Shown here piece by piece: positions 27,306-32,353 of a stretch of DNA of 64,000 nucleotides; the stretch's first letter is position 1, and each line of letters begins with the position of its first letter. The stretch covers positions 124,001 to 188,000 of the forward strand of contig NZ_QNRR01000008.1 in the NCBI RefSeq assembly GCF_003315205.1, written 5' to 3'. The notes beneath the pieces are model-generated. The model was not told where the DNA came from. It ran no database searches and was given only the letters and a program-made list of their open reading frames with translations. Source of the DNA: Roseimicrobium gellanilyticum. Its GTDB lineage: Bacteria; Verrucomicrobiota; Verrucomicrobiia; Verrucomicrobiales; Verrucomicrobiaceae. The position numbers were made by a program, and so were the translations under genes.

Positions 27306-30300
27306 TTACCGCTTTTTGAGAACGAATTTGTAGGCTTTGCCGGCGGGCATCGGGGCCTCGACCATGTGCGCAGGATCATCCATGGAATGCTGGTCGCCGG
27401 TTGCCCAGATGTATTCCCAGCCGAAGAAGACCCTGAACTTGCCGGCAGGAAGCGTGGACACGCGGAACTTTCCTTCCGCGTCCGTGGGGGAATCTGCGGC
27501 GAGGCTGTCCGCGATGTCCACAAAGCTGGTCTGAGTGGGAACCTCCACAGGAGCAAAGTGCAACTTCACCCCCTGAAGTGGAGCGCCATCCAGTCCAACA
27601 ACCACGCCCTCCACGGCGTTTGCGGACTCCCGCTGCAACCGTAGTGGGGAGGCTGGACCATTCAGCCTGGCAATCAGCGGTGCGATGCCACGAGTGGCCG
27701 GCACCGAGAGGTAGTATAGGCCATCGACATCGAAGTTCATGTGGGGAAGCTCAAAGGTGCCATCGGATTTGATCGGCAGATTGGAGCTGGTGATGCGGTG
27801 CGCCGGTTCCTTGTAGATCAGGTAGATGTTGCCGCCTTCCATGGGGGTGCCGTCAGGCTGGAGCACAGTGCCGCGAAGAGTGTCCCCATCGGGAAAGGAG
27901 ATGTCTTTCCGCATCAGGGGAGTCGCTTCATCGACGACAAACTCCGGTGTCGCGGTGATGGATGTATCGTGGCGGATGAGGATGCGGTACCTGGCATTCA
28001 GCGAGACGGGAGAGATGAAGAACCGGGAGCCGTGATCCAGGACCTTGAGCAGCTGGCCGGAGTCGTTGTGCACGGTCTGCCACTCTCCGGCCCGGTCCTC
28101 GTATTTTAGCAGGATGAGATAGGGGTCGCTGCGTCCCACTTGAAATCCAGGATACATGCGGATGTCGCCACTGATGGCTCCCGCTGGCTCCATGGGGATG
28201 TCGATGTGCAGAGGTCCGTCACCAGCCTCGATTTTCTCCCACTTCCGATCAAACCGGTATCCGGTGATGCCGCCGGAGTAGATGTTCAACTGGGTGTTCA
28301 ATGGGGCGCGGACTCTGCAAATGCCGTCGGTGACCTTGTGGGAGGTGACGGTCGAGTTCTTGATGACCAGGGGTACTTCACCATTGAAGGGAGGGCTGCC
28401 TTTCGGCGTGGTGAATACGAGTTCCACTTCGCGTGTGGCCTCAGCCGAGGGAGTCGCTTTCTCGGGTATCGAGAGACATTTCAAGGTCCCGTCTTCGATG
28501 CGGAATCGGAGATCCTTCATGCTCGAGGTGAAGTCGGTTTCCCACTCTTTCTCATAGACTCTCAGTTTGAGCTTTCCCGGGGATAGCTGGCGGAACTCGA
28601 AGGAGGCAGTGTTCGATGCGTCTGCCTTCACGCTTAGGGGTAAATCGACCGCGCCTCCGCTTGGGCCGAAATCCTGGTCGAGCCGGAGATAGATGTTGGA
28701 GTCCTTCCGCATCACCTTTTTCTCCGGGTCTTCAATCGTGCCGGAGAACACAAGTTCGGGTTCGAGTTCGAACTTGAACACACCACTCTCTCCGCCCATC
28801 TGCACAAATTTTCTGCCATAGCCGGGGGCTTCAAGGAGAAGGTCGTAGGTGTCATTGGGATGGCAGATATTGAGTGCCAGCTTTCCCTGGGCATCGGAGG
28901 GCTCGGCGTTCATCCGGGGCATGATGCCGTAGCCATAACCGTGGTTGAAGGCTCCGTTATCCCGTCTCCGCATCTCGCACAGCACATTCACTCCAGCAAT
29001 GGGCTGCTGGGTCCGCGCATCTGCCACCGTGCCGACGATGGGGGTGCTCTTGACGAGTGTCAGCGTGACGGGCTTGTCCTTCTCGAAGCGAACGTCCTGA
29101 AAGCGATTCCACTGGTAGCCATAAGCGCGGATGTCGAATCGGAAGCTAAGTCCCTCCAGAGTGTTCCCGGGAATGCAGGTGCCTGCTGCGTCAGTGCGTA
29201 ATGGTCCTTGCCGATAGAAGTCGCATTCAGGAGCGAGGTAAACGGTGCAACTGAGCTCGGCGTCGGGAATGGGTTGTCCATCCTTGTCCACCAGCTTGAG
29301 AACGGCGGGGAATCCTCGTTCGATGACGAGCTCGAAAGCACCGTGGTTCTTGTCTGGACCATCAAACGTGGCCTGAGTTATGGCGGGGGCATACCCAGGA
29401 GTCCATGAGCCCACATGCATGCGGCTGCCCTTGCCCCTGACGGTTTCTTGCTGACCAACTCTGTTGCCAGAGTAGAAGGACGTGTAGCCCTTGGACCAGG
29501 CGGTGAGGCCGATGTCCTCCTTGGGCTTGGATCCGTCGGCGGTGCGCACAGTGCCGGTAGCCTTGATTTCTTGGGGAGCGGCATTGTCCTCGGTAATCTT
29601 CAAGGCCTCGCGTTCTTGATTGATGACGGTGATACGCTCCTCTGGTGTGAGGGCGCGGGCGATGCGAGGAACGGCCAGACCGCAGACGACGAAGTAAAGC
29701 GCAATGCCCGCCACACTGGTGATGCCGAAGCGCTCGGGGAGAGATGTGAGGCGGCCGTGCTCGCCGAGGCCGAGGATGCGCTGGATGCGATGTTTCAACG
29801 ATCCCATGCCGGTGGCGGCGAGGGCGAACTGGGCGCCGCGCCACTCCTCCGCGGCGGCGAGGGCGCGCGCATAGGTTTTGCCATCGCCTTTCCATTGCAG
29901 CACGAGGTCGTCGCAGGCGAGTTCGCCAGTTTGACGCACGGTGCTGGCGAGGGCGTGCGCGGCGGGGTTGTGGAAGAGAAGTGTCTCCACCACGGTAACC
30001 CAGAACTGGAGGAGGGGATCACGACGCTTCAGATGCGCGAGCTCATGCAGCATGAGGGACTCCACTTCCGCGAGGCTGAGCCGTGAGAGTAGCGACGCAG
30101 GAAAACAAATCACGGGGCGCAACCAGCCCACGACGAGTGGGACGCCGAGCGCGGGGCACACCAGCACGCGCACATGGCGAAGACCGGCACGATTGGCCCA
30201 TTCGACGAACTGGGCAAGCCAAGCAGGCTCTGGATCGGTGCCTGTATGTTTCAGTCCTGCAATCCATCTCCAACCAAAGAGAAGACGGATGGTGAGAAGC

Positions 30301-30758
30301 GTGAGGCCAGCGAGCCACGCGGTGGCAAACCAGATGGGAAGCTGTGCCACCCATGACGTCTTCGAGGCTTCGGCAACAACAAAGGCGTCGGTGGGGCGCG
30401 TGGGTGGTGCGGTGGACAGTGGCACCACGGTGACGTCTGATTTCTCAGGGGAGGCCGCGGGAGGTGGGGGTGCAGGTGATTTGGATGCGGCTGGTGCGAT
30501 GCTGGCGTAGACGTGTTGTGCGGGTTGCGGCTTTTCCGGTTTGCCGACCTGCATCCAGATCATCGTGATCACCGGGACGAGTGCGAGGGCCGTCAGCGTG
30601 AGCCACGCCAGCCGGTGCTTCGCAGCGGCGGAGAGATGATGACGTCCCACGGCAAACACAAGTGCCAGCAGCGCCCAGAGGGTGGCGCCCTGCCACAGCG
30701 AATGCACCAGCACCCAGCCGAGGTCTTTGAGCCAGGGGGATTGGAGGAAGGTGCTCAT
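27306..30758 (-). CDS. BlaR1-like M56 metallopeptidase with a very large exported carboxypeptidase-regulatory-like region
   Basis: A 1150-residue membrane protein. Three hydrophobic segments (about 14-37, 50-69, 138-162) precede a cytosolic gluzincin domain with HELAH (238-242) and a third ligand in GELACDD (E279), complete for M56 peptidases such as BlaR1/MecR1. A fourth segment (about 346-363) leads to about 785 exported residues. BlaR1 carries a penicillin-binding sensor at this place; here instead there are at least four beta-sandwich repeats of the carboxypeptidase-regulatory type (for example GTVADARTQQPIAGVNVLC and GTVLQPDGTPMEGGNIYL). The upstream gene is its BlaI-like repressor, overlapping by 4 bases. 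By analogy, a signal sensed outside would activate the peptidase and inactivate the repressor. A Pro/Ala-rich loop lies between segments two and three. Confidence 0.88.
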   Translation of the reverse strand: MSTFLQSPWLKDLGWVLVHSLWQGATLWALLALVFAVGRHHLSAAAKHRLAWLTLTALALVPVITMIWMQVGKPEKPQPAQHVYASIAPAASKSPAPPPPAASPEKSDVTVVPLSTAPPTRPTDAFVVAEASKTSWVAQLPIWFATAWLAGLTLLTIRLLFGWRWIAGLKHTGTDPEPAWLAQFVEWANRAGLRHVRVLVCPALGVPLVVGWLRPVICFPASLLSRLSLAEVESLMLHELAHLKRRDPLLQFWVTVVETLLFHNPAAHALASTVRQTGELACDDLVLQWKGDGKTYARALAAAEEWRGAQFALAATGMGSLKHRIQRILGLGEHGRLTSLPERFGITSVAGIALYFVVCGLAVPRIARALTPEERITVINQEREALKITEDNAAPQEIKATGTVRTADGSKPKEDIGLTAWSKGYTSFYSGNRVGQQETVRGKGSRMHVGSWTPGYAPAITQATFDGPDKNHGAFELVIERGFPAVLKLVDKDGQPIPDAELSCTVYLAPECDFYRQGPLRTDAAGTCIPGNTLEGLSFRFDIRAYGYQWNRFQDVRFEKDKPVTLTLVKSTPIVGTVADARTQQPIAGVNVLCEMRRRDNGAFNHGYGYGIMPRMNAEPSDAQGKLALNICHPNDTYDLLLEAPGYGRKFVQMGGESGVFKFELEPELVFSGTIEDPEKKVMRKDSNIYLRLDQDFGPSGGAVDLPLSVKADASNTASFEFRQLSPGKLKLRVYEKEWETDFTSSMKDLRFRIEDGTLKCLSIPEKATPSAEATREVELVFTTPKGSPPFNGEVPLVIKNSTVTSHKVTDGICRVRAPLNTQLNIYSGGITGYRFDRKWEKIEAGDGPLHIDIPMEPAGAISGDIRMYPGFQVGRSDPYLILLKYEDRAGEWQTVHNDSGQLLKVLDHGSRFFISPVSLNARYRILIRHDTSITATPEFVVDEATPLMRKDISFPDGDTLRGTVLQPDGTPMEGGNIYLIYKEPAHRITSSNLPIKSDGTFELPHMNFDVDGLYYLSVPATRGIAPLIARLNGPASPLRLQRESANAVEGVVVGLDGAPLQGVKLHFAPVEVPTQTSFVDIADSLAADSPTDAEGKFRVSTLPAGKFRVFFGWEYIWATGDQHSMDDPAHMVEAPMPAGKAYKFVLKKR

Positions 30759-31186
30759 GACTTCTTCGTCTTGCTGGCTGGTTTCGCGTCTTCTTCCGCG
30801 TCGAGGTTGTCGAGCAGCTTGCGTATTTCCGCGCGTTCCTCCGCGGACACTTTCTTCGTGGAGAGGGCGCCGAGGACGAGCTGGGCGGCGGAGCCTTCGA
30901 AGGCCTGCTGCAGGAGTCGTCCCAGCAGGCTGCGTTGTACGCGCTCTTCCGGCATGGCGGCCTGGTAGAGGTGGGTGCGTTCGGATTCGTCGCGGGTGAC
31001 GAGGCCCTTCTCATGCATCACCTGGAACTGCTTCAGCACGGTGGTGTAGCTTCCTTTCGCGCCCAGATCCTCCCACACCTGACGCACGGAGGCGGAGCCG
31101 AGGTTCCAGAGGACACGCAGGAGAGGGAGCTCTGCCTCGGTCGGTTCCGGACGGGAGGGGTTTCGGACTTTGGGAGGGCGCGGCAT
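30755..31186 (-). CDS. BlaI/MecI/CopY family transcriptional repressor
   Basis: A 143-residue protein with the family's winged helix-turn-helix (PTEAELPLLRVLWNLGSASVRQVWEDL, KGSYTTVLKQFQVMHEKGLV) and a C-terminal dimerisation helix region ending in a Lys-rich tail. Its stop overlaps the start of the M56 peptidase gene by 4 bases (ATGA), so the pair is translationally coupled. Two palindromic sites lie just upstream of its start (31203-31218 and 31246-31261) and are probably its operators, implying autorepression. Confidence 0.93.
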   Translation of the reverse strand: MPRPPKVRNPSRPEPTEAELPLLRVLWNLGSASVRQVWEDLGAKGSYTTVLKQFQVMHEKGLVTRDESERTHLYQAAMPEERVQRSLLGRLLQQAFEGSAAQLVLGALSTKKVSAEERAEIRKLLDNLDAEEDAKPASKTKKS

Positions 31187-31202
31187 GATGGAAAGAGTGG
31201 TG

Positions 31203-31218
31203 TACGATATTAATCGTA
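31203..31218. promoter_or_regulatory. Operator 1 for the BlaI-like repressor
   Basis: Perfect 16-base palindrome TACGATATTAATCGTA, 17 bases upstream of the repressor start. BlaI-type repressors bind dyads of this length. Confidence 0.7.
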
Positions 31219-31245
31219 ATGATGCGCAGAGTTGGTGGAATGGTC

Positions 31246-31261
31246 AACGATAATAATCGTA
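31246..31261. promoter_or_regulatory. Operator 2 for the BlaI-like repressor
   Basis: Near-perfect copy AACGATAATAATCGTA. Its centre is 43 bases from that of operator 1, about four helical turns, so the dimers would sit on the same face of the DNA. Confidence 0.7.
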
Positions 31262-31342
31262 GATGTGCTGGTCCGTCGCATTTTCCCGGTCGTGATCCTT
31301 GATATGACCCCGGTCTTGTCGGACAAAGCGACCTCCTTCCTC

Positions 31343-32353
31343 ATGGCCAAACCTCCGCCTCCGCCCACCTTCAAGGACAAGATTGCCAAAGTCACGGATC
31401 GACTCCTGAGCAAGCACGCAAAACAGGCGCTCACGGACCCTGGGATGCAGAAGTGGGGCATCAACAATCTCATGCGTGCGGCGAAGCGCTACAATCGCTG
31501 GCGCTATGGGGAACGGGAGAAGAAGCACCAGAAGGCGTACGACAAGAAACTGACTGAGCTGATGGAAGAGCATGGTGGGCCGGGGCACTATCCGCCGAAG
31601 ATGGTGATGCAGGATGGTTGGGCGATTGATACCTCCATGTCCCTGCCGGGGCTGGACCGCCTGCTGGATGAGGCAGGGCAGGTCGCCCGTGAGCGTGCAG
31701 GAAAGTCACACACCGACGTGCAGCAGCCCTACTTCCGCAATCTCATGGTGTATGAGGATGTGATGAAGTATCCCTCGTGGCTGGACTTTGTCACTTCTCC
31801 GGATGTGCTCGCGACGGCCATTCACTACCTCAAGACCATCCCGGTGCTTTCCAAGACGCGTCCTCCGGGGATTCGCTTCATGGAGTCCAATCAGAACCTG
31901 GACCCGAATCCTCCGGGGCCCTTCTCCGAAAGCCAGCTCTACCACATGGATCTGCATGACCAGCCTCTGGTGTATGTGCTGGTGCTCATTGATGATTGCA
32001 CGATGGAGTGTGGTCCGTGGCATTTCCTTCCGGCGTCCGTCTCGGATCGCGCCATCAAGGCGCTCGGCTACCAGAAGCGCGGCGTGCGCTACCGCGTGAC
32101 GGATGAGGAGATGTACTCCGTGATCGATCCGAAGGAGGCGCAGATCTTTGCCTACCCGAAGGGGACGGTGCTCTTCATCGACTCCAGCCGTTGTTTCCAC
32201 TACGGCAGCCGCCTTTCCTACAAGCCGCGCCTGCAGATGATGTATGCCTACACCTCCGTGACGCGCTGTGACTTCTCCCAGACCTTCATGCCTGCCTTTC
32301 CCTATCCGGTGAAGAAGACAGACTCACGGCTGAGGAAGATGGTGCTGAAGTGA
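31343..32353 (+). CDS. Phytanoyl-CoA dioxygenase-like Fe(II)/2-oxoglutarate oxygenase
   Basis: A 336-residue soluble protein. The C-terminal half shows a double-stranded beta-helix with the facial triad H201-x-D203 (LYHMDLHDQ) and distal H286 (CFHYGSR), and an Arg shortly after (R290 or R296) that would bind 2-oxoglutarate. CGPWHFLPAS matches the PhyH-family G-x-(4)-P-G-S-type region. The N-terminal 100 residues are helical and not from the family. The substrate is unknown. The start at 31343 is preferred over an open frame from 31232, because the latter would read through operator 2. The gene is divergent from the BlaI-like repressor and may share its operators. Confidence 0.72.
   Translation: MAKPPPPPTFKDKIAKVTDRLLSKHAKQALTDPGMQKWGINNLMRAAKRYNRWRYGEREKKHQKAYDKKLTELMEEHGGPGHYPPKMVMQDGWAIDTSMSLPGLDRLLDEAGQVARERAGKSHTDVQQPYFRNLMVYEDVMKYPSWLDFVTSPDVLATAIHYLKTIPVLSKTRPPGIRFMESNQNLDPNPPGPFSESQLYHMDLHDQPLVYVLVLIDDCTMECGPWHFLPASVSDRAIKALGYQKRGVRYRVTDEEMYSVIDPKEAQIFAYPKGTVLFIDSSRCFHYGSRLSYKPRLQMMYAYTSVTRCDFSQTFMPAFPYPVKKTDSRLRKMVLK

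Follow-up and report, generated by a model that had tools for sequence, protein, structure and literature searches.

BlaR1 owes its fame chiefly to its role in switching on resistance, and the operators of BlaI and MecI in Staphylococcus are of the TACA/TGTA type. In the strict sense, a β-lactam sensor of the BlaR1/MecR1 kind carries a C-terminal penicillin-binding domain with the motifs S-x-x-K, S-x-N and K[TS]G. Here we describe a BlaI/M56 gene pair of Roseimicrobium gellanilyticum (Verrucomicrobiota) that lies in a 64,000-nucleotide stretch of contig NZ_QNRR01000008.1 (positions 124,001–188,000; hereafter the window, whose numbering is used for its features). According to PMC9834060, BlaR1 of S. 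aureus cuts BlaI at the Asn101–Phe102 bond and undergoes autocleavage at Ser283–Phe284. Compared with S. aureus BlaI/BlaR1 and MecI/MecR1 as described there, the window pair has the same repressor–protease pairing, the HExxH motif and glutamate with Asp and Arg partners, the BlaR1 fold, an exported C-terminal part and palindromic operators. Unlike S. aureus BlaR1, the window M56 protein has no detected penicillin-binding domain and carries ~785 residues of β-sandwiches; its operators are of the TACGAT-N4-ATCGTA type, unlike those of Staphylococcus, and its operon is without a resistance gene; a search of the genome turned up no further strong operator site. A second precedent comes from Clostridium thermocellum, for which PMC8457756 reports a BlaI_1845 regulon, mapped by DNA affinity purification sequencing, that consists of its own operon alone and has two inverted-repeat pairs; self-only control by BlaI is thus already known. 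The window pair shares the twin inverted-repeat sites and has an apparently self-only regulon as well, whereas the BlaI_1845 operon adds, in the same source, two hypothetical genes, one thought to serve peptidoglycan synthesis, and the window operon consists of blaI and M56 only.

Both window genes lie on the reverse strand. The blaI-type repressor gene (30755–31186) encodes 143 amino acids and matches PF03965 (Penicillinase_R) at 80.5 bits, and the gene for the BlaR1-type M56 metalloprotease (27306–30758) encodes 1150 amino acids with a large exported C-terminal part and matches PF05569 (Peptidase_M56) at 92 bits. The original prediction, made from the sequence before any search, had the BlaI-like gene overlapping the M56 gene by four bases, and the open reading frame (ORF) coordinates agree. 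The repressor belongs to the winged-helix BlaI family by its PF03965 match, and its structure matches are MecI, a penicillinase repressor and 2g9w. On balance, we favour the reading that the pair forms a BlaI/BlaR1-type proteolytic relay in which the penicillin sensor is replaced by a β-sandwich rod and the main transcriptional output is the two-gene operon itself. Computation supports both genes, the protease's catalytic residues and BlaR1 fold, the absence of any detected penicillin-binding domain, the conserved twin operator, the lack of any other strong site among those found and the end of the operon after M56; we infer binding of BlaI to the boxes, cleavage of BlaI, a sensor role for the rod and an effector role for M56.

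For comparison, G000 denotes the source genome, G001, G002, G012, G018, G021 and G130 its relatives, and L-numbers the fetched loci. The pair belongs to a seven-member group comprising five blaI-M56 loci (the window, G001, G002, G012 and G018) and two M56 genes without blaI (in G002 and G018); the G002, G012 and G018 loci and these two second M56 genes make up the five g2 relatives of the window M56. A close blaI orthologue occurs once per genome in four related genomes (72–91% identity). The G001 orthologues are 80% (M56) and 90% (BlaI) identical to the window proteins, with 77.8% for the ectodomain and 92.0% for the M56 core, and identities to the g2 relatives drop to 25–28% for the ectodomain, 46–48% for the core and 72–74% for BlaI. 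Compared pairwise with G001, the ectodomain has a dN/dS (nonsynonymous over synonymous divergence) of 0.136, the core one of 0.052 and BlaI one of 0.068, at a dS of 0.7–1.1. As these ratios fall within 0.05–0.14, all three parts are under purifying selection, and, given the G001 orthologues and the low dN/dS, both genes look real. Judged by these comparisons, the ectodomain is evolving faster than the M56 core and BlaI.

Two putative operator boxes, both palindromes of the TACGAT-N4-ATCGTA type on the reverse strand, were recognized by conservation. Box 1 (TACGATTATTATCGTT, 31246–31261) runs into a −35-like TTGACC (31242–31247), of which TTGAC is invariant in the seven promoters of the group, and box 2 (TACGATTAATATCGTA, 31203–31218) directly follows a −10-like CATCAT (31219–31224) found by promoter matching after a 17-nucleotide (nt) spacer. 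The combination TTGACC-17-CATCAT has 9 of 12 matches, with 0.3 such sites expected in shuffled sequence. Because this −35/−10 pair lies between and at the boxes, they flank the likely promoter. Both boxes are present in all seven promoters of the group (7/7), and this presence and conservation point to palindromic sites for BlaI on its own promoter.

We then searched for the operator elsewhere. The strict box TACGAYWAWNWTCGT gave two matches in G000 and two in G001, all at the blaI-M56 promoter. In G002, G012 and G018, it gave three, one and four matches, every one of them at a promoter of an M56 gene belonging to the group; a reversed-pattern control gave none in any of these five genomes. 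When up to three mismatches to the 16-mer were allowed, G000 yielded eight rows (four being its own boxes on both strands and four others with three mismatches; control, 8) and G001 twelve (four own and eight others with three mismatches; control, 14), so no extra operator site stood out above control in these two genomes. Across 68 genomes of the family, a twin pattern that needs a 15–45 nt spacer and is blind to the closely spaced class (boxes 22–25 nt apart) returned 14 rows, which are seven sites read on both strands in five genomes, all at promoters of the group, and the control produced one match in another genome. In G021, a g2 genome of 2.5 Mb that is 76% complete, neither a close orthologue nor the operator was found. 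Downstream of the window M56, a convergent dprA follows after 21 nt, and convergent ORFs lie 9–27 nt after M56 in G001 and in those three g2 loci where blaI is present (ORFs were called by longest-ORF picking and dprA by Pfam). Since the operon ends after M56, the strong sites would control only blaI and M56 and, in two genomes, a second M56 gene. With two boxes at its own promoter and no other strong site found in the genome, the pair appears to switch mainly itself; with the operon as its own strong regulon, the induced product of importance is, in our view, the M56 protein with its rod.

It is possible, although we consider it somewhat unlikely, that BlaI also drives a hidden set of effector genes whose boxes are single, weaker or divergent, or drives the divergent gene on the forward strand, which starts at 31304 or 31343, no more than ~150 nt from the boxes, and ends at 32353. 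The closeness of both candidate starts to the boxes speaks for this, as do two precedents: S. aureus BlaI controls separate resistance genes (PMC9834060) and C. thermocellum BlaI_0696 has three target operons (PMC8457756). However, only twin sites counted as real BlaI targets in the C. thermocellum work (PMC8457756), the mismatch-tolerant searches of G000 and G001 showed no excess over control, and the divergent gene is absent from the same place in G001, with no copy in the 25 other fetched stretches searched, which are stretches and not whole genomes. A conserved neighbour as the target was rejected for now, given that the operon ends after M56 and the divergent gene is missing at the G001 place. 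The divergent gene itself lies between blaI and a hydrolase-like lipoprotein gene and looks oxygenase-like by eye; Pfam returned only a weak DUF3878 match.

Residues 364–1150 of the M56 protein (27309–29669, reverse strand) form a predicted exported, all-β ectodomain of CarboxypepD_reg/CnaB-like character, with no transpeptidase domain detected by Pfam, structure model or motifs. The last strongly hydrophobic segment spans residues 345–363 and leaves ~787 residues C-terminal of it, in line with the ~785 exported residues first proposed. PF13620 (CarboxypepD_reg) scored 52.2 bits with three passing stretches, of which the best, at residues 1049–1110, is the sole one located; the earlier count of at least four carboxypeptidase-regulatory-like repeats is thus reduced to three by Pfam. 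Both this family match and the fold identify β-sandwich repeats of the CarboxypepD_reg/CnaB type, and by our own division of the model, which is not a tool count, the exported part would comprise about eight such domains. Its structure matches are single β-sandwich domains, led by carboxypeptidase D (Z 11.7 over 76 residues, 1.6 Å), CnaB2 (Z 9.9) and sortase-type pilins. The VIA rows for the model ranged from Z 7.7 to 11.7, mostly over model residues 118–305 and 411–683, and a Z under 8 may reflect a common arrangement only; the Foldseek list, with high root-mean-square deviations over long alignments, shows β-sandwich likeness only. CBM74-RFGH5 chains were considered as a clue to the ligand, but their matches were weak (E 0.06–0.08 and 0.39–0.85) and were not used as evidence.

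Such an architecture raises the idea, which we judge unlikely, that the ectodomain does not primarily sense a ligand but serves the envelope as a structural or adhesive rod, whose amount is metered by the BlaI loop. The likeness to sortase-type pilins, CnaB domains and carboxypeptidase D C-terminal domains would suit a rod of this kind, the output appears to be the M56 protein itself, and purifying selection acts on each half of the rod (dN/dS 0.133 and 0.137). Yet some members of the same large tree group bear recognizable ligand-binding parts in the same place, namely a transpeptidase (L059) and SBP_bac_5 (L131), and sharing a β-sandwich fold says nothing on function, either way.

Residues 1–363 (29670–30758, reverse strand) combine membrane helices with a zinc protease domain of the BlaR1 fold. 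The HELAH motif at residues 238–242 (30033–30047) provides two His ligands and the catalytic Glu by motif and alignment, and the third zinc ligand E279, together with D283 (29910–29924), aligns with E242/D246 of BlaR1; the HELAH motif and third ligand claimed beforehand could accordingly be placed at H238, E239, H242 and E279. Across 32 aligned M56 sequences, gathered with two peptide patterns of which one spans E279 and D283, the residues H238, E239, H242, E279, D283 and R324 are invariant. The AlphaFold2 model of the N-terminal 397 residues reached a predicted local distance difference test (pLDDT) score of 81.0, and the best of the 378 chains aligned to it was S. aureus BlaR1 (8ext; Z 20.1, 242 residues, 3.2 Å), with ZMPSTE24 as the best non-BlaR1 chain (Z 13.1). 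With its catalytic residues kept and BlaR1 as the best fold match, the protease half is therefore a BlaR1-type protein with the catalytic residues in place, and the M56 domain with HExxH and a third Glu, the BlaR1 fold and blaI in the same operon are those of a BlaR1/M56 antirepressor.

By alignment only, A314–A315 (29814–29819, reverse strand) corresponds to the BlaR1 autocleavage bond, and G106–A107 of BlaI (30866–30871, reverse strand) falls, in an ungapped alignment, on the BlaR1 cleavage site of the S. aureus repressor. That the residues at these presumed scissile bonds are unlike those of S. aureus would fit an M56 protease that acts on another substrate and leaves BlaI, controlled in some other way, uncut. 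We hold this to be improbable in view of the kept catalytic residues and the tight pairing of the two genes: among the fetched loci, near-copies included, 91 of 106 M56 ORFs have a BlaI ORF overlapping them or ending ≤60 nt upstream. Because most rows of the fetched-locus set were gathered through the two M56 peptide patterns, the set is a sample of one branch.

A penicillin-binding domain was not detectable in the window M56 by any of our approaches, as the original prediction had proposed. In Pfam, no transpeptidase family, PF00905 included, matched up to an E-value of 1, whereas the same-genome paralogue L059, our positive control, matched PF00905 at 174 bits; the NCBIfam model blaR1_generic scored 57 bits against a cut-off of 400. 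Residues 364–1150 contain three S-x-x-K and four S-x-N motifs, and K[TS]G was not found there. The S-x-x-K at residue 410 is absent even in G001; the other two, at 726 and 745, persist there but in none of the five g2 relatives. Structure prediction of these residues, proposed beforehand, gave a nearly all-β model; a transpeptidase fold with S-x-x-K, singled out in advance as the contrary finding, was looked for and not seen. The window M56 is thus not a β-lactam sensor in the strict sense, and a cryptic penicillin-binding domain, for which the scattered S-x-x-K and S-x-N motifs and the two S-x-x-K kept in G001 might be taken to speak, is ruled out for practical purposes as extremely unlikely by the family search with its L059 control, the unconserved S-x-x-K, the lack of K[TS]G and the all-β model.

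Next, we asked how widely the architecture occurs. An ectodomain profile matched 15 of 288 sampled genomes of the phylum at E ≤0.001 and seven of 288 at E <1e-40. Five of the seven strong-match genomes lie outside g1 and g2 (loci L217, L218, L220, L221 and L222); there, the ectodomain is the C-terminal part of an M56 gene with BlaI directly upstream. Hence, the search for the same architecture suggested by the original prediction did recover relatives of the ectodomain on M56 proteins elsewhere in the phylum. At L218:7816–11253 (G130), the M56 gene appears interrupted into ORFs of 452 and 688 amino acids, with one stop inside the profile match and the ectodomain as the next ORF. Another locus of G130, L219:4307–8433, has a BlaI gene divergent from a 1218-residue M56 gene whose product is partly like the window ectodomain, with twin boxes CTACTATAAAAATAGTAG / CTACTATTTATATAGTAG upstream of blaI. 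L118, a metagenome-assembled genome (MAG) locus, is a further carrier with a BlaI-like frame just upstream, by eye.

A tree built from 102 M56 domains places the seven group members in a single set (support 100/99) nested in an 83-row set (100/99) together with transpeptidase-bearing and Bacteroidota proteins. Mapped on this tree, the ectodomain label requires four changes, at least two of them forced by well supported branches. Within the 83-row set, the M56 protein of L131:6544–9246, from a Truepera MAG, continues into an SBP_bac_5 solute-binding domain (233.5 bits), which hints that the same relay can bear a different type of ligand sensor, and that of L122 (Lysobacter) carries TonB_C. Twin dyads scoring ≥9 were found upstream of 67 of 93 BlaI genes in the fetched loci and in 8 of 1790 control windows, a count from which the L120 row, an artefact of an N run, was removed and in which many rows are close, non-independent relatives and some (e.g. 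L070) may be chance. In Bacteroidota, they are mostly TACGAA-N4-TTCGTA twins ~24 nt apart, with a very regular form in Pedobacter and relatives (e.g. L121, L141 and L173).

In the self-inducing relay that we favour, BlaI dimers would occupy the two palindromes flanking the promoter and hold the operon at a basal level, and M56 would lie in the inner membrane with its zinc site in the cytoplasm and, on the other side, a rod of ~eight β-sandwich domains. Some event there, be it a ligand, surface contact or envelope state, would release the protease, which would cut BlaI near G106–A107; the promoter would then open, more M56 and BlaI would be made, and the system would reset. That the cytoplasmic zinc site should cut BlaI is proposed by analogy with BlaR1 (PMC9834060).

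Several points weigh against this reading. The scissile-bond residues are G–A and A–A here and N–F and S–F in S. aureus, although small P1′ residues in place of Phe may be compatible with a changed S1′ pocket. A sensing role of the rod is proposed by analogy, and the AlphaFold2 model of residues 364–1150, with β-strands throughout and nearly all β, was built from six sequences and has a mean pLDDT of 67.9. The divergent gene at 31304–32353 might share the boxes; moreover, the operator search covered strong or near-strong sites, and single weak boxes could act. Finally, the five distant carriers have operators or spacings other than those of the window (CTACTGTA-type at L217 and L218, ACTACGGATGTAGT-type at L221, AACGAA-like at L222 and TACGAA-like at L220), so that operator and ectodomain do not strictly travel together and the exact operator of the window belongs to the seven-member group.

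The group also includes M56 genes that stand apart from blaI. The second M56 genes of G002 and G018 (the orphan loci L066 and L067) bear the twin operator, and no BlaI ORF was found near them in their 19.9-kb stretches. By ORF likeness, the L066 gene sits between aroB and dprA and the L067 gene beside dprA, which is the neighbourhood of the window pair. In both G002 and G018, a single blaI gene stands out as a close orthologue (72% and 73%), with the runner-up at 45–46%. From this arrangement, we infer that a single BlaI may repress both M56 genes in trans in these genomes.

The source genome itself contains 11 M56 genes (12 rows, two of which are one ORF) and 10 BlaI genes. Twin dyads scoring ≥9 precede 8 of the 10 BlaI genes but occur in none of 1056 control windows, which overlap each other and are mostly coding DNA; scores were low at L015 (4), where two boxes are visible by eye, and L013 (8). 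The operator sequences differ from pair to pair, and those of four further pairs were searched in G000 and G001. For TGCTAA-N4-TTAGCA, all matches in G000 were at the pair's own promoter (control, 0), and the same held for CTACAANTGTAG (control, 3; in G001, one further match just upstream of another blaI), TGCAGAWWTTTCTGCA with one mismatch (control, 0) and CGTTAAAANNNTAACG with one mismatch (control, 5; no match in G001). Five of the ten pairs were thus searched, the window's included, and all five were self-only in G000 at the stringency used; L013, L015, L016, L017 and L019 lay outside the search. CarboxypepD_reg domains also occur on three other M56 paralogues (L054, L057 and L060, the last barely above cut-off), which share these domain kinds with the window M56 but have M56 domains in another well supported part of the tree and other operators. 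In four M56 proteins of G000, the exported part resembles Secretin (PF00263) by family match (L053:6469–8286, L055:7004–9877, L055:9908–12760 and L058:8109–10520), an odd partner for a BlaR1-type protease. At L055:6624–12760, one BlaI gene precedes the two tandem M56 genes, both with Secretin matches and 30 nt apart; at L058:6628–10520, a 333-residue ORF, exported-looking by eye, lies between blaI and M56, and the operator TGCTAAAAAATTAGCA occurs twice at the locus and at no other place in the genome.

The closest relative of the window pair within G000 looks like a penicillin-sensing version. Leaving aside the self-match, the window M56 scores best in G000 against L059:6466–9357 (31%), and the BlaI of L059 is the next best BlaI match (50–51%). 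The operators of L059 and of L068:7210–10068 in G001 are of the same TACGA-N6-TCGT type as the window's, although the L059 boxes are 22 nt apart and those of the window 43. Unlike the window M56, the L059 protein bears PBP_dimer and the Transpeptidase domain, and L068 a homologous part. A convergent ORF lies 2 nt downstream of the L059 M56 gene, so there is no resistance gene in that operon.

More broadly, and tentatively, β-lactam sensing could be one specialized use of a wide class of closed-loop M56 switches. Each pair would have its own operator and be essentially self-inducing, the M56 protease with its exchangeable ectodomain would serve as both sensor and effector, about ten such loops would operate per cell, and some relatives would run two M56 sensors from one BlaI. 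In open-access PubMed Central, outside which most subscription papers lie, we found no paper on Verrucomicrobia BlaI/M56 pairs or on the window ectodomain; within that search, no publication turned up that describes an M56 protease bearing this ectodomain, the operator found here, a second M56 seemingly controlled in trans, or parallel pairs with differing operators in one genome. In the window, the BlaR1-type relay has had its ectodomain swapped and shows no resistance gene among its visible targets, and its operators are defined well enough for direct tests. Should control prove to be self-only, the M56 protein would be the induced product worth study in these bacteria, and penicillin induction would be just one instance of a broader circuit for monitoring the envelope.

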